In this document: piece after piece, positions 539 through 62,803 of the stretch
Layout: each line of letters starts with the position of its first letter
How positions within the stretch are numbered: the first letter of the stretch is position 1
Source of the DNA: a virus
IMG/VR virus record: IMGVR_UViG_3300042566_000762
Span: 42,462 to 106,461 of that record
Direction: 5' to 3' (one strand)
Length of the DNA: 64,000 nucleotides
Position numbers and translations under genes: made by a program
The notes under the pieces: model-generated
What the model was told of the DNA's origin: nothing
The model's database searches: none
Seen by the model: the letters and a program-made list of their open reading frames with translations, nothing else

Positions 539-2278
539 TTACTCTTTATTGAAATCTTCCGTTAAAATAGTTTTTTTATTACCATTCATATCTTTAAATA
601 TCTCCTGATAATTATTTCTTGGTTTATATTTTACGGAACCTTCTTTTGCTTTAAGTGTCTTAATTCCCAATGGGTCTCTACCTTCTGGATGGTCATCCTT
701 ACCATATCTAACGGGGTCTTTAGGTCTACCCACACCATCTTCTTCTAATTCGGTTTTTAATCTATTCAATTCTTCTTCTACATTTGTAGGGCCCTCTGTT
801 CCAGTTTCTTTTGCCGGGTCCATACCCTGAGTTTCGATAGATGTTAAACGGAATGTTTGTTTAGTATCATCTAATACTTGCAATGTCATTTCATCTTGTT
901 CATCTTTCGCCATTTTCATTACCGCATCATACATCCATTCTTTAGAGAACATCTTTGTTTGTTGCATTTGTTGAATTAGAGCTACCTTAGAGGTGTATAA
1001 CTCAACTTGCTCTTGCTCATAGATTTTAGATGGGATAGTTAATTCTAATGAAAAATTAGTTAATCTATCATCATCGATACCTTGTGCATATAAATGAACA
1101 ATTGCAATTTTAGTTAATTCTGAAATAATTACTCTTTGAACTCTTTCGATTGTTTTTGCAAAACGGATATCCATTGCTGCAAGAGTTGCTTTACCATTTG
1201 TATCTTCTTCATAACCCATATATGCTTTTGGAATCTTCAATGCTGCCATTAACTTACCTTTCAAGTAGTTAATATCATCAATCATATTATATTCCAAACC
1301 TTTTAGAGTATCAATTGAAGTTCCATTATCATTACCACGAACTGGCATATAATAATCTTCAATAAGGTTTTGCATATTGTATTTTAAGTTATACTCACCC
1401 GTTCTTTCATCAACAAAAGGAACTTTTTTAGATGAGTTTATAATTTTTTGCATGTAATTATCCACTTCATTTGGTGGAATATTACCTACATCAATTTTAA
1501 AAATTCTCTTTTCAGGAGCTCTCATTACTCTATGAATTAACATAGCATCTTCCATTAACATTAATTGTTTCCAAACTCTTCTACCACCTTCAATCATTGA
1601 TTTACCATAAGGTAAGAAGTTTGAATCCGAATTTAAACGGAAGTGTGCCATTTCATAGTTTTCAAATTCTTTCTTTGCAGATTGTCCTACTGAATTATAT
1701 GGATTTTGGTATGGAGCGTATACAAACTTAACTCTTTGTGGATTTTCTGGGTCGAATCCTTCTACCCTACTCATTTCATATACCGATAATGGTGCAACAC
1801 CAACGATACCAACTTTGTCTGCCATTTCTAATTGTAAAAAGAAATCACCATATTTAACCAAATTTCTAGCCCATGGCCATAAATTAAATTCAACATTAAG
1901 AATATCGTAAAATAAATTTTCTAATATTTGTTTAATATTGTCATCCTCATGATGGATTTTTAAAACATTACCCATTTCATTTCTAGCAGTACTTTCATCT
2001 GCATAGACATCCAATGCCGATGATAATATCGGGTCCATATCCATAGAATCATAGTCTCTAAATAAATCTATTCTAACTTGTTGATATGCCATTGAAGATT
2101 CAACTTGGCCACTACCATAGTTAGTGACTTTCATTTTCATAAATCTATCAACCAAATTTGTGGTCATATTTTGCCACTCATCGGTATCAACAACTTTTAT
2201 ACCATCTTGCGTTTGACGAACAATTGTATTTGTTGAAAATAATTTTTGTAACCTACTAAATATTGTTTTATCTGCCAT
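539..2278 (-). CDS. 20: Portal vertex protein (T4 gp20-like)
   Basis: This 579-residue protein matches the T4 gp20 portal family, which forms the dodecameric ring at the capsid vertex through which DNA is packaged and to which the neck attaches. Typical family segments are the N-terminal DYDSMDMDPILSSALD region (about residues 75-90), WARNLVKYGD, MRAPEKRIFKIDVG, and LKIPKAYMGYEED in the C-terminal half. Length is close to T4 gp20 (524 residues), with a polar C-terminal extension containing a VGRPKDPVRYGKDDHPEGRDP segment. It follows the terminase and a small head protein and precedes the left-edge head gene, the expected packaging-to-head order. A host-type promoter (2300..2331) lies directly upstream. 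Confidence 0.95.
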   Translation of the reverse strand: MADKTIFSRLQKLFSTNTIVRQTQDGIKVVDTDEWQNMTTNLVDRFMKMKVTNYGSGQVESSMAYQQVRIDLFRDYDSMDMDPILSSALDVYADESTARNEMGNVLKIHHEDDNIKQILENLFYDILNVEFNLWPWARNLVKYGDFFLQLEMADKVGIVGVAPLSVYEMSRVEGFDPENPQRVKFVYAPYQNPYNSVGQSAKKEFENYEMAHFRLNSDSNFLPYGKSMIEGGRRVWKQLMLMEDAMLIHRVMRAPEKRIFKIDVGNIPPNEVDNYMQKIINSSKKVPFVDERTGEYNLKYNMQNLIEDYYMPVRGNDNGTSIDTLKGLEYNMIDDINYLKGKLMAALKIPKAYMGYEEDTNGKATLAAMDIRFAKTIERVQRVIISELTKIAIVHLYAQGIDDDRLTNFSLELTIPSKIYEQEQVELYTSKVALIQQMQQTKMFSKEWMYDAVMKMAKDEQDEMTLQVLDDTKQTFRLTSIETQGMDPAKETGTEGPTNVEEELNRLKTELEEDGVGRPKDPVRYGKDDHPEGRDPLGIKTLKAKEGSVKYKPRNNYQEIFKDMNGNKKTILTEDFNKE

Positions 2279-3558: not shown

Positions 3559-5166
3559 TTACTTTAGTAACCAAGTTAGATTTTCAGTATTTCCTCTAGT
3601 GTCATTCATTTCATATGGATTTGTTTTTAGATGGCCTGTTGAGATTAATCCTTCATATTTGTTTATATGTGCTGAGTTTAACATTTGTTTTGTCAAATCT
3701 ATACCTTCTTGTTTCAATCTCAGTGCAGTATTACGAACCCAAAGTCCAATACCCAACGCCATAATAAGGTCATCATTATATCCTTTCATTGCTTCTGCTC
3801 TACCATTCTGCCAAATGAACGTAAACATTTCATCTATCAATCTACTTGAACGAATTAGAATATCTTTTTCATTCATATATGTGTCTAATGCTGAAATAAT
3901 AAGTGGACGAGTTTTACTGGTCGTTGAAAATCCTGCAACCATTTGTCTTTCGTCTCTATAATATTTGTTTGACATTTGTCTTTCCGTATCAATATATTTC
4001 AAATCATTACTCATATAGAATAAGTTTTGATATCCTCTATTGATAATTTGTTGAATACATGCCCAACCTACATTTGAGTTCTCTACTACTAAAAGTGCGT
4101 TATTATATTCGGTTGCCAATGCAGTTAAAAAGTTTCCAAAATCTTTTGTGTCAATTTTACCTCTATATTCTGCAACTTGGGAACTATCTTCTATATCTAT
4201 AACTTGTGCAGTAGAATAGTCAGCTCCGTCACCACGTGCAACGTCCGCACATACCATATATGCTCTATTGTAATTTGGATGTTCCCATACCCAAAGATTA
4301 TTATCAAATCCTCTTTTTTGTGCAGGTTCCATCACATATGTATCTTTATACCATGTCAATAATGCCGGTTCAAATACCGTATCACCTGAACCAACAAAGT
4401 CACAATCACATTCTTGTGCCGCACCTTTAACTCCTAAGATTTTAGTTTGTTCATCTCTCCATGCCTGATTCCTTTCTGGGTGAACTGTCCAATGTAGATT
4501 GATATTATTAAATCCATTTTGGCCACTTTCTCCGTCTACCCACATTTTATGAAACCAATTACCAATACCATTTGGAGTTGATAATACGATTGCAGCACCA
4601 CCTGTTGATAGAGTCGATTGTGCTGATAACCAAATTTCATCAATATCTCTAATGAATGCAGCTTCATCCACAACTAATAGGGATAAGGCTTCGGAACGAC
4701 CTGCGTCCGGAGAACTTGCGATTGCTTTTACTTGTGAACCATTTTTTAATTTAAGAGAAAGTTTGTTATCTTCTACCGAACTACTACCCCCATCTCTTAA
4801 CCAAATAGGAAGTAAGTCGTGCATAACTCTTACCTTCTCTACCAGATTCTTCGCTACGGTCACTTTTGTTGCGATTACCAATGCATTGAAGTCTTGATTG
4901 AATAACATCTTCCATAAAATATATCCTGCAGATAAGGTCGATAGACCCAACTGGCGGGATTTAAGAATAATGTTAAAACGATTATCTTTAAAGTCTGTTA
5001 AACAATTTTCCTGGAATGGATAAAGGTGAAAGGGTATTTTTCCTCTCACCGGATGTTGAATGACACAATACTTCTTCATAAAGTAAATTGGGTCTAACGC
5101 ACACTTGCGATATTCTTCAGCAATTATCTCTTTTAAGGTTTTCTTAGGTTGCCCCTGAACTCCCAT
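3559..5166 (-). CDS. 17: Terminase large subunit (T4 gp17-like)
   Basis: This is the ATP-driven DNA packaging motor and headful nuclease. The ATPase half carries a degenerate Walker A, SRQLGLST (residues 70-77, where T4 has SRQLGKTT), and Walker B LLVVDEAAF with D167 and E168. A STPNG coupling motif is at 196-200. The RNase-H-like nuclease half shows CADVARGDGADYS (D308), VVENSN (E362) and NDDLIMA (D465/D466). At 535 residues it is shorter than T4 gp17 (610), mainly at the N-terminus. The start overlaps the preceding membrane-protein gene's stop by one base. Lysine is missing from the P-loop end, but this variant is common in terminases of this type, so it should be active. Confidence 0.96.
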   Translation of the reverse strand: MGVQGQPKKTLKEIIAEEYRKCALDPIYFMKKYCVIQHPVRGKIPFHLYPFQENCLTDFKDNRFNIILKSRQLGLSTLSAGYILWKMLFNQDFNALVIATKVTVAKNLVEKVRVMHDLLPIWLRDGGSSSVEDNKLSLKLKNGSQVKAIASSPDAGRSEALSLLVVDEAAFIRDIDEIWLSAQSTLSTGGAAIVLSTPNGIGNWFHKMWVDGESGQNGFNNINLHWTVHPERNQAWRDEQTKILGVKGAAQECDCDFVGSGDTVFEPALLTWYKDTYVMEPAQKRGFDNNLWVWEHPNYNRAYMVCADVARGDGADYSTAQVIDIEDSSQVAEYRGKIDTKDFGNFLTALATEYNNALLVVENSNVGWACIQQIINRGYQNLFYMSNDLKYIDTERQMSNKYYRDERQMVAGFSTTSKTRPLIISALDTYMNEKDILIRSSRLIDEMFTFIWQNGRAEAMKGYNDDLIMALGIGLWVRNTALRLKQEGIDLTKQMLNSAHINKYEGLISTGHLKTNPYEMNDTRGNTENLTWLLK

Positions 5167-6533: not shown

Positions 6534-9500
6534 TTATGCGTAAAAAATACCTAATATCTGATTTAGTGGTGCAAATGTACCAGTTAACTTATATGTTTTA
6601 CCATTATAAAAGAATACTAAACCTTCACTTGCAACTATTTTTTCAATACCACCCAATTGATTTAATCTTTCCAATTCAGTTTTCAATTTTTGTATTTGAG
6701 CTGGATTTCCAGCACTTCTAACTTGGTCTGCTACTGATTTGAATTTTTGTTTCATCGCTCTAATAGCATTTTCAGGGTGAACAGTTAATACACTTCCAAC
6801 AAAATCTAATACATCCGCACCTACACCTAAAAATATTTCTTCAAATGGTCTAATGTTTTCTTTTTGTTGTTTGATTACATTTACTTTATCATTTTCAATT
6901 GCCCACTCTTGCAATTCTTCATTTGAAATTGTGTTTAAACGAAATGTTTTTTCGCCAAACGCCCATCTTCTAATCAACGCTTCTTTAGTAATTTTATCAA
7001 CTTTAGTAGGCGCTTTTGATTCAATCCACCAATCCCACCAACTTTGATGATAATCAGCCACATTGTCCGTATCTTTTAAATGAAATTCCGATTGTAATTT
7101 ATTTAATTTTGATAAATATTTACCTTGTTTAGAACTTAAATTATTATCTTTTGGAATAGAAGTTATGGGAGGGCCTTGAATCGTATATTTTGATTGAACA
7201 TCTGCGTTTACTTGTTTAATCATTCCCGCCAATTTAGATGCCGCTGATTGGTCTGCACCAACTGCTTCACCTTTTTCATTATAACAAGTTGTATTATGAA
7301 ATACTAAAAGTGCTTGGCCATATGGAATAACATTAACCGAATCTGGCCATATTACTTCTAAATTCATAAAGCATTGGCCTTCGTTAAATATTTTCTTTCT
7401 TTGTGCTTCCGATAACCCACTAATTGCTGCTGATAAATCTTTCATTGCAAAGTTGTAAGCATCGGTTAATCCACCTCTACCGGCAAACTTTGATGCAACA
7501 TCTTCGATACCCATTGCGTTTGCACCTGCGTTTGCTAAATTACCTTTATTTCTGGCTGCAATCAATCTACCATTTTTCCAACTAATTGCTAATGCCTGGC
7601 CATCTGTTTTTTCTCTAACAACTCCCAAGTCACCTTCTAATGCAGATTTAATTATATTTTTCAAATCACCAAAAGTCAAATCCATATCATCAAAAGGATG
7701 TGACATGTGTCCGTATGCACCACCCTCCATCAATAATCCCTCTTTAATAAATTCCGTTTCTACATAATCAACATCTGGAAGGTTTTTTATACTATATGTA
7801 ATAGTTCTTTCTTCTGCATCGTCATCACCAAATATTGCATCTGCTTTTGGAAAATCAGTTTGAGTATATCCACCATTTTTATACCAATCTTCACTTTTAT
7901 CGGTATTTAATTTTCTTTTTTTACCTTTTTGAACAAATGAACCATCTGGAACATCTGCGGTATTGGATACCATAACACTACTAACTTCGTTTAAATCGGG
8001 TTCAATATTTAATTCTTTTTCCATTCTGGTAATATCATCATATCCCATATTACGAAGTGCTTTTGCAACTGCCGTTGGGTTGTTATGATTTGGATTACCA
8101 AATAAAAATGCATTAATTCTTTTTCTGAATTTTGCATCTCTGTAAAGTTGAATTATGTTTTTGAAATGAATATCTTTATTACCCATTTCATATATATTTT
8201 GTCCTTTTTGTCCTAAACGAAATGTGGTTGCCTTTTTACCATTTATAGTTGGCATTCCGTGGTCATCTTTACCAATATCTTTAACAACAACTTTTTTGTT
8301 TTTGAATTTACCCATTAAAACCTCATCACCCTTATCAACATCTATATTAATATCTTCATTATAGATTTGTTTATTTATCTTACCATAATTTCTCATTAAA
8401 ATACCGGCTACTGCATGTGCTTGATTTTCAATTGGAGAACCAGTTGCACCATCTTTAACTTCATCTTTTACTAATCCCAATTCATCTTGTTTTCTATGAA
8501 CCATTTCGTGTGCAAGAGTTCTAAGTATGTCTGCAGTTAATCTACCTTCTATTGCAACATATATTTCTTTAGACATTGGATTATACCCACCTAAAGAGGT
8601 TTTTGCTTCTGAATATTCTCTACCACTTAGTAAAGTTATTTTTGGAGTTTCTTTTAACTTTAATTTTTTAGTTGCATATTCTACAAAATGTTGAATTGAA
8701 TTTTGTTTTGTTTCTGAAATATTTTCGTTTAATCCTTTTGTAAGATTTTGTAATTTTGAAATTTCCTTTTGTTTTTTATAAGATTCCAATGTTTTTAATA
8801 ATTGTTGAGGATTTGGTTCAAATGTTTCCATTTTTTTAACAACGTCTGCAACTAATTTTATAAACATATCACCATTTGCTTTTGTTTCATTTACTTCTTC
8901 CGCCAATCCCATTCCTTTAAGTGCCATATGTCCCAATCCAAAAAGGCCTGCACCTACTTGTGCTTCGATGTGGCCCTCACCCGCTGCCAATCCTAATGCT
9001 TCTAATCCACAATGTTTTCCAAAATCAATTGCTGCATGTGCTGCAAATCCTCCCACACTTGATACGGAATGTGATGCACCTTGACTTGCGGCTTGTATTA
9101 CTCCACCAATACCCTTTCCTGCCGCAGCTGCACCGGTTGCTCCTGCGATTGCTGCACCGACAACAACCGATGCTCCTATTACCGCTACATCTTTAAGAGT
9201 TGAAATACATGCTTTTCTTTGTCTTTTTTCCTCATGCTCACTATGTTTATATTGACCATCTTTATCTTTAAACCAACCAAATTTAGGTTTTCCTGTATAC
9301 ATAGTTGATAATGCCAAAGATTTTAAACCTCTACCGGTATTTTTTAATTGATGGTATTTTTCTTTTACAACTTCGTATACTTTTTCAGCTATATTTTTTG
9401 GAAGATTTGAAATAAAATCACCAATTTTTTGAGACCAATTTTTTCTTGTTTCAGAATGTGGGTTGGTTGTTTCATGAACATCATGTTGTTCTTCTTCCGT

Positions 9501-10793
9501 AAAATCTTTAATTATCGCTTCACATTTTACTTTTGCCTCTTTTGCTATTTCAGCAGCTTTTTCTTTAATTTTATCTATACCAGATTTTTCAGCATCAGAT
9601 TTTAATTCTCCACCTCCTAACTTTTGTTCAGGTGGGGGGCCTTGTTCTTGACCTTTTTCACCAGGTGCAGCAGTTGGTTTTTCTTTATCTATTTTTCCCT
9701 GCGGCGTTTGTCCTTTTTTTGTGGGTTGGCCGGGTTCGGATGGTTTCGCCGATTGAGTTGCTGCTTTTCCAGGTTCCGTTTTTTTCTTTGGGTCGTTTGC
9801 AGGTGCATCATCTGGTCCTGCTATTTTTGAAGCTTGAATGTGTGCTGGATGTTCTTTTGGTAATCTTAATGCATCTCTTGCTTTAATTTTCTTTTGTTGG
9901 CCTTTACTATTTGTATAACTAATATCAACATCCAATGCTTTATTTGAAGCTTCACCAAAATATTCTTTAGCAAATTCTTCAAACATTTCATTTGTAATAT
10001 ATCTTTCTATTATTTCTGAAATGGGGTCATATGGTGCTTTATTTCCGTCAAATGCCTTTTTCTCATCTTCGGGATGTTCCGTTTCATGTCTTGTAGGATG
10101 TGGTTCTGGTCTCATTTCCGATGATGGTTTTGTATTATTGGTTTCATCTATTGAACCTGTTGGTGCACCATTGATATATCCTCCCGGTAAATTCAATCCA
10201 ACTCCTATTCCTCCTGGAAATCCTTCGTTCAATTTTGTTGTTATCATTTTAAAAATCTCTTTGTCAAATTTTGGATATGCTTTAAGAAAAAACTTTTTAG
10301 CCTTTTCTTTATCGTTACTTCCCAATCCTCGTCTAACTTCGGTTCCACTTATAGGATTTTCTTCGGCAGGTATTGGATATGTATAACCTATTTCATCGTA
10401 ACCATATCCAGCATTGCCTTTATATGGTTTAAAATATTTTCCCTGTAATCTACTTGCATCTTTATCACCTACTGCTGCAATATATGCAATAGTTTGTCCG
10501 TCATATTTTTTTAATATTTCGGCAGGTCTATATGGATTGTTTACTTTTACAAACTTAGTAGATGGAACACCAAACATCTTAGTTGCAATTTCCTTTTTCT
10601 CATTAAAAGAAAATGGAGATTTATCGGAAGATGTATCATTTGATGTTGCAATATAAACATTTGCAGAACCAAATTCACTTACTAAGTTTTGATATGCCGC
10701 ATAATGTCCTTTATGGAATGGTTGAAAACGACCAGCATATACGACTATTTCACCTTGTATTTTTGGTTTATCTTTTTCTGTCAATAAATTCAT
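6534..10793 (-). CDS. Giant multidomain protein: NMNAT-like + zincin + nucleic-acid-ligase-like
   Basis: A 1419-residue protein with three enzyme-like parts. Residues ~14-190 are an HxGH nucleotidyltransferase of the NMN-adenylyltransferase (NadM/NadR) type: GRFQPFHKGH at 21-30 and ISGTEVR at 148-154. Residues ~325-410 form a Pro/Lys/Gln-rich linker and ~530-600 a Gly/Ala-rich hydrophobic stretch. Residues 762-766 are HEMVH inside LAHEMVHRKQDE, a gluzincin-like HExxH site. Residues ~1030-1240 carry KTDG (K1062), RNKG and NLEVI (1144-1148), which match motifs I, Ia/III and IIIa of covalent nucleotidyltransferases (DNA/RNA ligases). LNE|G at 188-191 and IKE|G and LME|G just before the ligase part fit the prohead-protease consensus. 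It heads the packaging operon. No substrate can be read from the sequence. Confidence 0.85.
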   Translation of the reverse strand: MNLLTEKDKPKIQGEIVVYAGRFQPFHKGHYAAYQNLVSEFGSANVYIATSNDTSSDKSPFSFNEKKEIATKMFGVPSTKFVKVNNPYRPAEILKKYDGQTIAYIAAVGDKDASRLQGKYFKPYKGNAGYGYDEIGYTYPIPAEENPISGTEVRRGLGSNDKEKAKKFFLKAYPKFDKEIFKMITTKLNEGFPGGIGVGLNLPGGYINGAPTGSIDETNNTKPSSEMRPEPHPTRHETEHPEDEKKAFDGNKAPYDPISEIIERYITNEMFEEFAKEYFGEASNKALDVDISYTNSKGQQKKIKARDALRLPKEHPAHIQASKIAGPDDAPANDPKKKTEPGKAATQSAKPSEPGQPTKKGQTPQGKIDKEKPTAAPGEKGQEQGPPPEQKLGGGELKSDAEKSGIDKIKEKAAEIAKEAKVKCEAIIKDFTEEEQHDVHETTNPHSETRKNWSQKIGDFISNLPKNIAEKVYEVVKEKYHQLKNTGRGLKSLALSTMYTGKPKFGWFKDKDGQYKHSEHEEKRQRKACISTLKDVAVIGASVVVGAAIAGATGAAAAGKGIGGVIQAASQGASHSVSSVGGFAAHAAIDFGKHCGLEALGLAAGEGHIEAQVGAGLFGLGHMALKGMGLAEEVNETKANGDMFIKLVADVVKKMETFEPNPQQLLKTLESYKKQKEISKLQNLTKGLNENISETKQNSIQHFVEYATKKLKLKETPKITLLSGREYSEAKTSLGGYNPMSKEIYVAIEGRLTADILRTLAHEMVHRKQDELGLVKDEVKDGATGSPIENQAHAVAGILMRNYGKINKQIYNEDINIDVDKGDEVLMGKFKNKKVVVKDIGKDDHGMPTINGKKATTFRLGQKGQNIYEMGNKDIHFKNIIQLYRDAKFRKRINAFLFGNPNHNNPTAVAKALRNMGYDDITRMEKELNIEPDLNEVSSVMVSNTADVPDGSFVQKGKKRKLNTDKSEDWYKNGGYTQTDFPKADAIFGDDDAEERTITYSIKNLPDVDYVETEFIKEGLLMEGGAYGHMSHPFDDMDLTFGDLKNIIKSALEGDLGVVREKTDGQALAISWKNGRLIAARNKGNLANAGANAMGIEDVASKFAGRGGLTDAYNFAMKDLSAAISGLSEAQRKKIFNEGQCFMNLEVIWPDSVNVIPYGQALLVFHNTTCYNEKGEAVGADQSAASKLAGMIKQVNADVQSKYTIQGPPITSIPKDNNLSSKQGKYLSKLNKLQSEFHLKDTDNVADYHQSWWDWWIESKAPTKVDKITKEALIRRWAFGEKTFRLNTISNEELQEWAIENDKVNVIKQQKENIRPFEEIFLGVGADVLDFVGSVLTVHPENAIRAMKQKFKSVADQVRSAGNPAQIQKLKTELERLNQLGGIEKIVASEGLVFFYNGKTYKLTGTFAPLNQILGIFYA

Positions 10794-14132: not shown

Positions 14133-14674
14133 CTATCTCTTTTTTGTAATATTGGTGAATCCGTTGGCCATTCGATTTGAAATTCAGGGTCATTCCATTT
14201 TACAACACCTTGTGCGTTTTCTTCAACAAAATCACCTTCATAAAATAAATTATAATGAAATACACAATCGGTTAATGCATAGTGTCCATTTGCAAATCCA
14301 GGTGGAACTAATATTTGGTCTCTGGTTTTTTCAGTAAGTAAATATGAATTCCAATCACCATATGTAGGTGATTCTTTTCTAACATCCAATACTACTAAAA
14401 ATATATCACCGACCAAAGCTTGAACCAATTTCCAAGTCTTATTATCCCAATGCAATCCTCTCAATACACCTTTGTATGATTTTGAGAATCTACCATGTAC
14501 TTTCAAATCTCCGTGCATAAAATTATGAACAGGATGTTCTTCCGGATGATATGTTGTCCAAATCTCTCCCCTATATTCTCTATATACCGATGGTGAAAAT
14601 ACTGGTACATCTTTACCAAATGGTTTTAAAAATGATACATCTATATCATTCCATTTTTTATCTTTATAACTCAT
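14129..14674 (-). CDS. rmlC: dTDP-4-dehydrorhamnose 3,5-epimerase-like protein (RmlC family cupin)
   Basis: The 181 residues are the normal length of RmlC-type cupins. The family signatures are VHGRFSKSYKGVLRGLHWD (catalytic-site RGLHW at 72-76), LVGDIFLVVLDVRK, and ILVPPGFANGHYAL (124-134), followed by a tyrosine at 141. Such enzymes epimerise C3/C5 of dTDP-4-keto-6-deoxyhexoses or act as related 3- or 3,4-ketoisomerases. I cannot tell these apart here, so the gene symbol denotes the family. No RmlA, B or D gene is in view; host precursors may be used. Its 3' end has been copied twice (12133..12157 and the tail of 12795..12947). Confidence 0.82.
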   Translation of the reverse strand: MSYKDKKWNDIDVSFLKPFGKDVPVFSPSVYREYRGEIWTTYHPEEHPVHNFMHGDLKVHGRFSKSYKGVLRGLHWDNKTWKLVQALVGDIFLVVLDVRKESPTYGDWNSYLLTEKTRDQILVPPGFANGHYALTDCVFHYNLFYEGDFVEENAQGVVKWNDPEFQIEWPTDSPILQKRDR

Positions 14675-15489
14675 ATTAATTTATTTTTATGCGTATTAGT
14701 TAAGTATTTTGCTAATTCTTTTGCGTATTCAATATGTCCGAAATATCCAGGATGTAAATCTTCATATCCTGTTAATTCTCCTTTTAATTCATCTGTTATT
14801 GTTAGTTTATTTCTCAAACAATAATTGTAAATATCATCCGATTCCTGTGTGTTTGAAAATTTTATAATATCTTCTTTATCAAATGTAGTTGTTAAATATA
14901 ACCAATTTTTTTGCATTAAAAATATTTTAATATTATTAAATTTACAAAAAGAATATAATCCAGCTAATGCATATTCATCATTTTTTAAATTAGCTTGAAA
15001 ATTAAAATGATTTTCGTGCCAATTTAAAAATATATCTTTATATTCCAAATCTTTTTCTAAAATTTTAGGATTAAAATAATCTCTAGTGGCGCCGGCCATC
15101 TCGTAAATATCACCATCATTTTTTGAATTAACTATATAATATTCGTTGGTTTTATTTAAGAATACATCACATCTACTAGGGTCAGGCTTATCTAATATAA
15201 TAAAAAATTTATTTTTATTTTTCCAATTTTTTTCTATAAAATCATAAGTCATTCTAACTATTCTTTGAACACCTACTCCCGATTTAGCTTCGTTAATACA
15301 TTTCACATTTATTAATTTAGATAATCTATATCCAAAATTAACTTCTTCTCTATTTTTCCAACTTACATTATGTAATTTTTTATATAACCTATGAACACCA
15401 ATACCTCTGATATTCGGTTCTTCTAATCCACCACCTTCACAATGCGAACTTCCGTTAACATAAAAAAATTGATATTTACTAAAATCCAT
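14671..15489 (-). CDS. SGNH-like protein 1
   Basis: The N-terminus MDFSKYQFFYVNGSSHCEGG provides the GxS block I of the SGNH fold. NEAKSGVGVQRIVRMT is the block II glycine region, FFIILDKPDPSRCDVF replaces block III, and DLHPGYFGHIEYAKEL supplies the terminal Asp-x-His of block V. About 272 residues, no signal peptide. I use the ATG at 15489, one base after the epimerase stop; an in-frame ATG at 15507 would overlap that gene by 17 nt. It is one of six related proteins here. Possible roles are sugar O-deacetylation or acyl transfer in the surface-glycan pathway, inferred from neighbours. Confidence 0.7.
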   Translation of the reverse strand: MDFSKYQFFYVNGSSHCEGGGLEEPNIRGIGVHRLYKKLHNVSWKNREEVNFGYRLSKLINVKCINEAKSGVGVQRIVRMTYDFIEKNWKNKNKFFIILDKPDPSRCDVFLNKTNEYYIVNSKNDGDIYEMAGATRDYFNPKILEKDLEYKDIFLNWHENHFNFQANLKNDEYALAGLYSFCKFNNIKIFLMQKNWLYLTTTFDKEDIIKFSNTQESDDIYNYCLRNKLTITDELKGELTGYEDLHPGYFGHIEYAKELAKYLTNTHKNKLI

Positions 15490-42155: not shown

Positions 42156-43397
42156 TTAGAAGTCTAATTTAACTTTGATTGCAACTTCCTTATCAAATGA
42201 TTTTTCAATTGGTTTAGAAGTTTTTGCTACTGCTAATAATTCGTTTGCATCATCATAAAGACCAACTGTTGTAATGTAAACTTTAGGGTCTCTTTCAAAT
42301 GATGAATTAACAAATGCTCCAACTGAACCAGTTACAAATGTTGGATTGTTTGAGAAGTTAAATTCTCTATTGTTTGCTCTTACAAAATAATGTGATGTAG
42401 AAACGTTTTCAGTTCTACGAACCTGGAAATCCATACCACCACTAATTGCCATCAACAATGCAACCGAACCTGAGTTACTACCATTATTTTGATGGTAAGT
42501 TGAAGTTATAGAATTATTTGCTGCGGCTAATTTAGGGTCAACTGCTGATTCCAATGCTTCTGGGTTCAATAAGATGATTCCCATATCAGGATAGAATAAA
42601 CCAAATCCTTTACCATTAGGAGCGGTGTATGAAGAAATTGATGCAGTTAATGCTGAACCAATATTCAATGAACCACTAACCATATTATAAACTCTTCCTG
42701 CAGTTGTTACATTTTCATCTGTTCCACCACTATCATCAATTAAAGTGATAGTTCTAACTGAACCAGAAAGTTCAATTGAAATGTTACCTGGGTCCAATCT
42801 TTCTTTGTATCTTGCTCTATTTACATTGATTGCGTAAAATGATGTCATATCAACTCCAGCTGCAGTAGAACCTGTGTAAACACTAAAGTAAGGGTCTGCT
42901 GAATCTAATAATACGTTTTTGTATTGATTATATGTAGCTTTTGTTGGTAATGTTGAATCATCGTTTTGAGTCAATGTAGGTGCACCAAATCCTCTTGAAT
43001 CACCATATGCGATTGAGAATTGAACCTCAGCTGCTTCAGATGAAGTTTGCATATTGTAAACATCTAAATAGTATTTACCACTAGTAGATGCAACCTGTAC
43101 AGAAGATGTATAATTTGCTTTAACATCCAAAGAACCCGTATCACCACTCCATATTCCAGAAGTTACGATTTCAGTTCTATTAGTTACTTTATCAATTGCA
43201 CCAAATTTTTTATAGATACCATTTGATATTGATGTAATATCTGAACTAATTTGTTCACCTGTACCTAAAAATTGGTTTACAATTCTAACTAATTCGCTAG
43301 TATCTACGGGAGTTCCTGCGGTGTTTGCTGCACCTGCTAAGTATTGCGATATATTACTTGCTAAAAGGGCTCCTCTATTGTCTCTTATTACTGCCAT
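42156..43397 (-). CDS. Virion protein with conserved C-terminal module, B
   Basis: 413 residues. The N-terminal part is helical (MAVIRDNRGALLASNISQYL), the middle is Ser/Thr-rich with FYAINVNRARYKERLDPGNISIEL, which I associate with structural proteins of marine T4-like phages. The C-terminal module (VYITTVGLYDDANELLAVAKTSKPIE) is shared with the 40871 gene. It is followed by the window's strongest terminator, consistent with high expression. Probably a tail or baseplate component; no T4 counterpart assigned. Confidence 0.68.
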   Translation of the reverse strand: MAVIRDNRGALLASNISQYLAGAANTAGTPVDTSELVRIVNQFLGTGEQISSDITSISNGIYKKFGAIDKVTNRTEIVTSGIWSGDTGSLDVKANYTSSVQVASTSGKYYLDVYNMQTSSEAAEVQFSIAYGDSRGFGAPTLTQNDDSTLPTKATYNQYKNVLLDSADPYFSVYTGSTAAGVDMTSFYAINVNRARYKERLDPGNISIELSGSVRTITLIDDSGGTDENVTTAGRVYNMVSGSLNIGSALTASISSYTAPNGKGFGLFYPDMGIILLNPEALESAVDPKLAAANNSITSTYHQNNGSNSGSVALLMAISGGMDFQVRRTENVSTSHYFVRANNREFNFSNNPTFVTGSVGAFVNSSFERDPKVYITTVGLYDDANELLAVAKTSKPIEKSFDKEVAIKVKLDF

Positions 43398-58944: not shown

Positions 58945-60642
58945 TTATTTACTAATCAAAAATTTACCCAATACTAAATAATCCATATCACAATTATGAA
59001 ATGTCCAAATTGCTTTTTGTGGGTCATTTGTCATTGTATGGTCTTTTAAGTTAAACGATGTATTCAATAGAATAGGTGTTCCTGTTAGTTTTTCGAACTC
59101 CTTTAATAAGTCATAGTAAAGTGGGTTATCTTCTCTTTTAAGTGTCTGTATCCTTGCAGAATTGTCAACATGGGTTACTGACGGAATGTTTACATCCTTT
59201 TTAACTTTGACAACCTGATTCATATAGGGAACATCTTCTTCTGATAGAAAATACTTTTGATAATCTTCATGTGTAACCGATGGAGCAAATGGTCTAAACA
59301 TTTCTCTCTTTTTGACAACCTTATTAATTCTATCTCTAATGTCGGACAAATGTGGATTACCTAATATAGAACGATTACCTAATGCTCTTGCACCAAATTC
59401 GGTTCTACCTTGAAACCAACCAACTATATTACCTTCTTCAATTAATTTTGCAACCTCTTTACACAATGTCTGATGGGTATCATGCATTATAACCTTACTT
59501 CTATTGTTTTGTAATATAATTTTAAGTAATTCAGGACTACTCCACTCTTCACCCAAATATGGAGATTGATTATCACCACCTTTTACTTTTGGATTACCCA
59601 ATAGAATGTGATGTTGATATAAACATGCACCTATTGCAGAACCCGCATCCGATGGAGCAAATGGAATCCAAACATTTTTGATTGACGTAGCTGTTTTTAT
59701 TTTACCATTGGCAGTTCCGTTGTATGCACATCCACCGCCCAACACCAAATTCTCACATTCCCAAATATTGGTAATTCTATTGATAATAAAATATAAAGCA
59801 CTTTCATACCATTTTTGTAATGATGCAGCTAAGTCTTTGTGATGTTGTTCAATGGGTTCATCTTTAAATCTTGGTGGAAACCCAATCAAATCAATTAACT
59901 TATCATTAAACATATCGTTATCGGATGTATGCCATGTAAAGTAAGACATATCCATCTTTACGATGTCAATTTCACCACCAGTAGTAACAACTTTGTCAAA
60001 TATGTTATTATATTTTTGATTATCACCATATGGTGCCAATCCCATTACTTTATACTCACCTTCGTTTGGTTTAAATCCTAAATAAGCAGTAAATGCCGAA
60101 TAGATTAAACCCAATGAATGTGGAAAGTGTAATGTTTGTATTTTATGAAAGCCTATGTCATCACACATTGCTGCATATATAGTATGTGATTCACCAACTC
60201 CATCAATTGATAAACCTATTGCTTTATCAAATGGTGATGTGTAGTAAGATAGTGCTAAATGTGATAAATGGTGTTGTGTATAAGTAATAATTCCTTCATA
60301 TCCAATAGATTTCAATATTCCTTTTAAATTACCTTCGGTTTGATTCCATCGTTTATTAAAGTTTCTCCATTTCATTGGAAATCTTAAACCACCCCATTTA
60401 CCAATTGTTTCTTTAACTCTTTCATATTTTAAATTCGGGTCTTCATACCAACAAACCATATCAATCTCATCAATTGTTATCTTTGTGTATTCCAAACACC
60501 ATTGAATTGCTTTAAACGGAAAAGAACTATCATGTTTAATTCCAGATAGTTTCTCTTCTTCAATAGCACAAATTACTTTACCATCTATAACGATTGTAGC
60601 TGCTGAATCGTGGTAAAATCCTGATAAACCTAATTGTATCAT
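58945..60642 (-). CDS. Carbamoyltransferase (NodU/TobZ/CmcH family)
   Basis: 565 residues with both family domains. The N-terminal YrdC-like kinase-fold part has GLSGFYHDSAA, QHHLSHLALSYYTSPF (iron-binding HHxxH) and LSIDGVGESHT; GGCAYNGTANGKI is the ATP-binding loop. The C-terminal part has GRTEFGARALGNRSIL and LNTSFNLKD. These enzymes transfer carbamoyl from carbamoyl-phosphate via carbamoyl-AMP to a hydroxyl of sugars or antibiotics. In a phage the acceptor could be a glycan built by the island or a modified DNA base. It lies 3 nt after the late sigma gene. Confidence 0.9.
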   Translation of the reverse strand: MIQLGLSGFYHDSAATIVIDGKVICAIEEEKLSGIKHDSSFPFKAIQWCLEYTKITIDEIDMVCWYEDPNLKYERVKETIGKWGGLRFPMKWRNFNKRWNQTEGNLKGILKSIGYEGIITYTQHHLSHLALSYYTSPFDKAIGLSIDGVGESHTIYAAMCDDIGFHKIQTLHFPHSLGLIYSAFTAYLGFKPNEGEYKVMGLAPYGDNQKYNNIFDKVVTTGGEIDIVKMDMSYFTWHTSDNDMFNDKLIDLIGFPPRFKDEPIEQHHKDLAASLQKWYESALYFIINRITNIWECENLVLGGGCAYNGTANGKIKTATSIKNVWIPFAPSDAGSAIGACLYQHHILLGNPKVKGGDNQSPYLGEEWSSPELLKIILQNNRSKVIMHDTHQTLCKEVAKLIEEGNIVGWFQGRTEFGARALGNRSILGNPHLSDIRDRINKVVKKREMFRPFAPSVTHEDYQKYFLSEEDVPYMNQVVKVKKDVNIPSVTHVDNSARIQTLKREDNPLYYDLLKEFEKLTGTPILLNTSFNLKDHTMTNDPQKAIWTFHNCDMDYLVLGKFLISK

Positions 60643-62250: not shown

Positions 62251-62460
62251 TTATTTTTTAAGTCCGTATTTTATAAATTTATACCATATTCTTTCATGTA
62301 AGTAATATTGAATGGGTTTATATACTAATTCTGCCACCCCAAATGCCGCTCCTACCTTAATATCACCACTTACCCACCACATTATACCAAATCCGATTAA
62401 AGTTGATACAATACGATATGAAATGGTTTTGGCAATGTGTCTTTTACGCTCTACTACCAT
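62251..62460 (-). CDS. DUF2061 small membrane protein
   Basis: I use the ATG at 62460 (MVVERKRHIAKTISYR), which gives 69 residues; an in-frame ATG at 62496 would overlap the upstream gene by 53 nt. RHIAKTISYRIVSTLIGFGIMW and the following VGAAFGVAELVYKPIQYYLHERIW are DUF2061 signatures with two membrane helices. This family often neighbours sulfate-activation or nucleotidyltransferase genes in bacteria. The linkage is repeated here with the gene immediately upstream. Function unknown. Confidence 0.78.
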   Translation of the reverse strand: MVVERKRHIAKTISYRIVSTLIGFGIMWWVSGDIKVGAAFGVAELVYKPIQYYLHERIWYKFIKYGLKK

Positions 62461-62803
62461 CTTTCTCAATTTCACCTTTACGAATTTTAGTTCCACTAAT
62501 TACTTCAATATTGGTAGGAGGTTCGTGATAAATCACTTCATAACCAACCCCTCTACCATAATTTACCGATTCAATATCTGGAACAATTGATAACATTATT
62601 TTATCCCAATTGTTTGTAAAAAATGATTCTTTTTGTAATTCTTGTAATACTTCTTGTGCTGATTTTGGATTATTTTCATCCTTTTGTACATCTCTAATTG
62701 CAACCCAACAATTTTTTCCTTTTTCTAATTGTTGATTAATTAACCACTCATGACCTTTGTGCCACGTTTGCCATCTTCCGATGAATAATGCATATTTTTT
62801 CAT
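62444..62803 (-). CDS. HxGH nucleotidyltransferase-like protein (NMNAT/cytidylyltransferase fold)
   Basis: 119 residues. The N-terminus MKKYALFIGRWQTWHKGHEWL gives the strand-loop with H15-K-G-H18, and ISGTKIR (102-108) is the second nucleotide-binding motif, as in NMN adenylyltransferases and related enzymes. It is smaller than bacterial versions (~160-200) and resembles the N-terminal part of the 1419-residue protein, with the same HxGH and ISGT motifs. It likely adenylates or cytidylates a small molecule. It is the first gene after a host-type promoter. Confidence 0.75.
   Translation of the reverse strand: MKKYALFIGRWQTWHKGHEWLINQQLEKGKNCWVAIRDVQKDENNPKSAQEVLQELQKESFFTNNWDKIMLSIVPDIESVNYGRGVGYEVIYHEPPTNIEVISGTKIRKGEIEKDGSRA

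Follow-up and report, generated by a model that had tools for sequence, protein, structure and literature searches.

What does a phage gain by joining unrelated enzyme-like domains in one long protein and keeping its gene among those that build the head? This question is raised by a gene in IMG/VR virus record IMGVR_UViG_3300042566_000762, a 106-kb viral record whose source seems to be a T4-like lake phage. We analysed positions 42,462 to 106,461 of the record (G000:C1:42462-106461), a stretch of 64,000 nucleotides that we call the window. The open reading frame (ORF) at window positions 6534-10793 is real: it lies on the minus strand, starts with ATG and encodes 1419 residues. A first-pass annotation, made from the sequence alone, had described a three-enzyme chain that is packaged in the prohead, cut at sites of the kind used by the T4 head protease gp21, and injected, with rescue of nicotinamide adenine dinucleotide (NAD) as one possible function. 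The ORF, profiles and motifs bore out its three parts: a domain of the nicotinamide mononucleotide adenylyltransferase (NMNAT) type, a zincin with HEMVH and a ligase-like part with KTDG. Comparison with relatives made the original observation stronger and lends strong support to packaging and cleavage, but none to NAD rescue. We consider it likely, from sequence comparison, that the product is a modular polyprotein carried as prohead cargo and that the phage's own gp21-type head protease cuts it in trans.

Candidate cleavage sites at the domain borders

A scan of viral contigs returned 458 relatives, from which 79 loci were retained, and a scan with a ligase profile added more. Residue invariance was judged in an alignment of 35 sequences and the module census covers 109 chains; sites were counted in 58 complete, full-length chains at the ligase border, and in distinct local windows or N-terminal extensions at the other borders. 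Hundreds of related environmental phages seem to carry versions in which other middle modules stand between the same cut sites. Among isolate or deposited phage records, only three relatives have NMNAT and/or ligase domains (Microcystis phage Mel-JY01, LR756508 and LR756500), and three further records match the zincin alone.

The published gp21 cleavage motif is L/I-x-E (PMC9026906). The chain has this motif where the first-pass annotation had placed it, at LNE↓G (E190), IKE↓G (E1018) and LME↓G (E1023; arrows mark predicted cuts), and also at three borders that had been overlooked: the N terminus (E6), the stretch ahead of the zincin (E690), and E936. The alignment shows no variation at E6, E690 or E1023. 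The three residues preceding the GG at the start of the ligase domain conform to [LI]xE in 57 of the 58 chains, variously as LLE, LME, LNE, LSE, ILE, LTE, ITE, IME, ISE or LVE. Clustering the 90 residues upstream of this site gave 15 unrelated contexts, 14 of which end in [LI]xE↓GG. At the other borders, [LI]xE was found in 41 of 45 distinct N-terminal extensions (27% in shuffled sequences), in 37 of 39 distinct stretches after the NMNAT-type domain (31% shuffled) and in 34 of 42 before the zincin (27% shuffled), where [LIVMF]xE accounts for 41 of 42. The control motifs [LI]xD and [LI]xN showed no enrichment at the same borders; E.[LI] and [LI]..E were enriched at some of them, as expected from overlapping double sites.

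Burial of the sites inside folded domains would speak against cleavage; we found the cores poor in sites and the linkers rich in them. Across the chains, linkers have 1.63 [LI]xE sites per 100 residues (1.03 after shuffling), whereas the three cores have 0.32 (0.71 after shuffling). Within the window chain, 13 of the 17 sites lie in or beside segments of low AlphaFold2 (AF2) confidence, and such segments form 31% of the chain. The N terminus, MNLLTE, resembles the starts of gp21 substrates in the T4 record, which include MEGLIE (gp67), MLLIPE (gp68) and MAKINE (gp24), along with TYQEFIAE (IPII and IPIII), TITE (IPI) and an LTE at residue 65 of gp23. One relative that encodes the ligase alone, L082, begins MKFLKSYEEFLNENLILE↓GGSYGHL, a T4-like propeptide set directly on the enzyme.

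The same genome encodes a gp21-type head maturation protease (phrog_207, E = 8e-53), whose gene at G000:C1:40623-41213 falls a little beyond the edge of the window. The match is also given as L085:18162-18752, and the protease was found in all 11 of 11 relatives searched. The polyprotein gene has a fixed place upstream of the terminase and portal genes: in 103 of 104 polyprotein loci the same strand carries TerL downstream of it, followed by portal and protease. The major capsid protein (MCP) of this genome has a conserved LDE↓A near residue 59, and across the clade the MCPs conserve [LIV]xE↓A at about residue 59, which we take to be the position expected for the maturation cut.

Several observations weigh against this reading. 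The 17 [LI]xE sites of the window chain are close to the density expected after shuffling, so that the three sites first noticed in it prove little alone. The motif carries little information, and 21 of the 89 ORFs of this genome have one within their first 24 residues. The relatives share ancestry, and their border counts are therefore not independent events. There are exceptions at the ligase border: LLC in L155, the only one among the 58 chains, with LLM in L186 and no site in L081 as further cases. AF2 confidence was modest (pLDDT, the predicted local distance difference test score, of 56 and 74), and low pLDDT is no proof of disorder because the conserved GGAYGHM also scores low. Finally, in phage SPN3US nearly all mapped head-protease cuts trim N-terminal propeptides, not internal enzymes (PMC10052503). 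Taken with the comparisons above, the placement and conservation of the sites across the aligned chains are non-random, though their number in the chain is near chance.

Modules exchanged between the sites

The two ends of the chain are nearly constant, whereas the cargo between them differs from phage to phage, and in this respect the description of a three-enzyme chain was too narrow. The complete chains show more than 30 architectures, in which inner modules are gained, lost and reordered within an NMNAT and ligase frame shared by nearly all full-length relatives. Shorter homologues, L023, L029 and L035 among them, largely lack the middle region (residues 191-690). A module with GKFKNKK...GMPTINGKxATTFR occurs in 90 of 109 chains and also at the N terminus of L188; it and the zincin probably stay joined, since a site between them is rare. 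Other inner modules in some relatives resemble ParB-like DGHHR domains, DUF5661, a second zincin or T4 RegB (Pfam E = 0.003, sub-threshold; BLAST 27% identity over 48 residues). For the E936 border, 93% of instances of the module ahead of it have a site no more than 15 residues further on. BLAST module breakpoints lie within 5 residues of sites in 27% of cases, compared with 16% for random linker positions, which we treat as secondary evidence because alignment ends are noisy.

The zincin could point to a different cutter. Its best profile match was Reprolysin (E = 0.003, sub-threshold), and its tentative assignment to the metallopeptidase (MPTase) type is based on HEMVH and the conserved E789. 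In polyvalent proteins no domain is commoner than the embedded zincin-like peptidase, which has been proposed to autoprocess them (PMC5512222), and a zincin is present in 79 of 109 chains. The chain could accordingly be an injected protein of the polyvalent type that is cut by its own zincin, either ahead of packaging or once in the host, or that works uncut. We regard this as unlikely: the architectures L080, L145, L147 and L158 lack the zincin but still have [LI]xE at the ligase border, the N-terminal extensions of L145, L147 and L158 end in the same motif, and this is the motif of the head protease.

Less likely still, [LI]xE could be kept for structure, as helix caps at domain ends, in a multidomain enzyme of the virion or cytoplasm that is never cut. 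Domain ends are often amphipathic, and so uninformative a motif is frequent in this proteome. What is conserved fits this poorly. The middle residue (P2) is free, the flanks and preceding modules are unrelated, and indels move the site yet keep it (KLNE, KLISE, KLMKE and KLKKLNE). The depletion of sites in the cores and the match of the N-terminal hexamers to T4 propeptides also argue against a structural role, as does the persistence of GGAYGHM without the E in L155 and L186.

The NMNAT-type and ligase-like ends

Residues 18-155 match Pfam CTP_transf_like (E = 1.8e-6, 28.7 bits, cut-off 21), and the domain matches the cytidyltransferase family phrog_395 (E = 1.5e-12). The closest PDB chains by sequence are NMN adenylyltransferases (E about 1e-4), and NadD, NadR and FAD synthetase are among the best matches to its AF2 fold, with E at least 0.1. 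As in NMN adenylyltransferases, an HxGH nucleotidyltransferase fold is combined with ISxTxxR (here ISGTEVR). NMNAT by itself cannot recycle nicotinamide. Neither NadV nor NAPRTase was found in any of 11 relatives (0 of 11), though fragmentary records could conceal NadV, and no Nudix or kinase fusion to the domain was detected. Because the NadV search was negative, we do not adopt the NAD-rescue function. Phage NadM has been reported only together with NadV (PMC9503650); the resemblance of our chain to NadM/NadR plus NadV salvage lies in the HxGH adenylyltransferase domain of NMNAT type, and it differs in being polyprotein cargo with none of those partners detected. A further, small HxGH protein (MKKYALFIGRWQTWHKGHEW), which on inspection looks like a cytidylyltransferase, is encoded at window positions 62444-62803.

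The C-terminal domain has motifs of RNA ligases and covalent nucleotidyltransferases (KxDG, xxExI, EGxV and the motif V K). EKTDG, NLEVI, EGLVF and YKLTG are nearly invariant across relatives down to 34% identity, and K1062, D1064, G1065, E1146, E1390, G1391 and K1402 are near-invariant residues. Searched alone, the domain had no match in Pfam or PHROG, and PDB sequences searched with a profile yielded no ligase. The top eight PDB fold matches to its AF2 model (pLDDT 73.6) were RNA ligases, all with E at least 0.1. In a structure search of a viral library, the best-scoring matches include proteins named cytidyltransferase-like which, at 80% and 37% identity, belong to the same family; an RNA ligase domain protein ranked seventh (E = 0.3). 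With hhalign, motif I alone aligned to T4 Rnl2 (P = 0.11, not significant). The domain is thus plausibly ligase-like, with weak support at the level of the fold, and it is possible that the enzymes of the chain handle RNA ends or nucleotides.

Both ends bear on the idea that the chain serves in the scaffold or core and is then chopped and mostly expelled, like T4 gp22, gp67 and gp68, leaving the enzyme domains as relics; despite the many sites per chain and the location within the head cluster, this is very improbable, given the near-invariant NMNAT and ligase motifs, a split intein located precisely at the KTDG of the ligase in L041 and L042 (typical of functional active sites) and a separate acidic scaffold-like gene adjoining the MCP gene.

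This split intein (L041:14400-15450 and L042:8474) interrupts the motif between EK and TDG, with an N-half beginning CIAGDT... and a C-half ending ...VHN. The separate ORF between the halves (14604-15335) is probably a homing endonuclease, a fractured-gene arrangement. In L155 (5051-8209), an HNH-like insertion of about 265 residues sits at the ligase-border site and replaces the E.

A proposed route from prohead to host

From these features we infer targeting, packaging, cutting, retention and ejection of the chain, as well as the activities of its enzymes and their benefit to the phage. The MNLLTE propeptide would target the chain to the scaffold core, as capsid-targeting sequences do in T4. 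During head maturation, the gp21-type protease would cut after [LI]xE in the linkers. The predicted products are an enzyme of the NMNAT type (about 7-190), fragments of the middle region, the zincin still joined to GKFKNKK (about 691-936), the small module at 937-1018, and an enzyme of the ligase-like kind (1024-1419). The released pieces would remain in the head and enter the host together with the DNA, ready at infection to act on host nucleotides and RNA or to repair cut nucleic acid. Among related phages the inner modules are exchanged. We lean, with some reserve, towards a general strategy of a widespread T4-like lineage, in which enzyme cassettes can replace one another (NMNAT-type, zincin, RegB-like RNase, ParB-like and ligase-like ones, besides modules of unknown kind). 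They would be separated by head-protease sites behind one capsid-targeting propeptide, a single packaged chain would yield several enzymes for injection, and payloads would be gained by cassette insertion between sites.

If this is true, the polyprotein route would load many enzymes into the head with a single targeting signal, and [LI]xE borders could be read as a code when uncultured phages are searched for injected proteins. The exchanged modules would then supply candidates for enzymes of host takeover or counter-defence, many of them without a known family.

Gene map and other features

Table 1. Parts of the polyprotein gene and head genes downstream of it, in window positions
Feature	Position	Strand	Remark
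Modular polyprotein gene, 1419 aa	6534..10793	-	458 relatives in viral contigs
Propeptide MNLLTE, capsid-targeting-like, predicted cut after E6	10776..10793	-	E6 invariant
NMNAT-type nucleotidyltransferase domain (GRFQPFHKGHY ... ISGTEVR), residues 14-189	10227..10754	-	Pfam, PHROG, PDB, AF2
Putative head-protease site KLNE↓G (E190), after NMNAT-type domain	10224..10232	-	Low-pLDDT segment 191-270 next
Variable middle region, residues 191-690	8724..10223	-	Mostly low-confidence or helical; [LI]xE at 217, 260, 263, 411, 470, 632
Putative site GLNE↓N (E690), before zincin	8724..8732	-	E690 invariant
Zincin-like domain	8376..8720	-	HEMVH (residues 762-766; 8496-8510) and conserved E789
GKFKNKK module	8217..8348	-	Usually joined to zincin
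Putative site DLNE↓V (E936)	7986..7994	-	Site list of chain
Swappable WYxNGGYTQ module, residues 937-1018	7740..7985	-	Ends in IKE↓G (E1018)
Putative site LME↓GG (E1023), start of ligase	7725..7733	-	Conserved in full-length chains
Covalent nucleotidyltransferase / RNA-ligase-like domain (candidate), residues 1024-1419	6537..7724	-	Motifs, AF2 fold
Ligase motif EKTDG, residues 1061-1065	7599-7613	-	
Ligase motif NLEVI, residues 1144-1148	7350-7364	-	
Ligase motif EGLVF, residues 1390-1394	6612-6626	-	
Ligase motif YKLTG, residues 1401-1405	6579-6593	-	
Large terminase, downstream of polyprotein gene	3559..5166	-	
Portal protein	539..2278	-	

A gene for ribosomal protein bS21 lies amid the head genes, left of the window (G000:C1:39372-39527), and bS21 was also found in six of nine other records searched, Mel-JY01 included. 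It recalls the freshwater bS21 phages predicted to infect Bacteroidetes (PMC9723584). A Nol-like carbamoyltransferase (phrog_1601, E = 4e-119) is encoded at window positions 58945-60642.

Comparison with known systems

The internal head proteins and Alt of T4 (PMC9026906) provide a model for the proposed route. They share with our chain a short propeptide at the N terminus, with [LI]xE as its last residues, and a protease of the gp21 type encoded by the same phage; packaging and ejection would be expected here too. The T4 cargoes are separate genes with propeptides at their ends only, whereas our chain unites several cargoes and has sites inside it. In phiKZ and SPN3US, the head protease (gp175/gp245) likewise cuts ejected inner-head proteins after a short motif whose last residue is Glu (PMC5694885, PMC10052503), but their substrates include no multi-enzyme chain. 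In the open-access literature that we searched, there was no phage chain of several enzymes whose modules are separated by head-protease sites.

Polyvalent proteins (Iyer et al. 2017, PMC5512222) are large late-region proteins of disparate enzymatic domains, among them zincin and ParB-like modules, with strong mosaicism and predicted co-injection with DNA; the present chain, too, joins several unrelated enzymatic domains in a late, structural gene context. The word NMNAT is absent from the main text of that paper. Our chain differs from polyvalent proteins in its T4 head-protease sites at the borders, its T4-like propeptide and its constant NMNAT and ligase-like ends, and in that the cuts are proposed to be made in trans, not by a peptidase within the chain. 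Both polyvalent proteins and the internal proteins of T4 were already known; what appears to be new here is the proposed organisation of an injected protein of the polyvalent type as a head-protease polyprotein.

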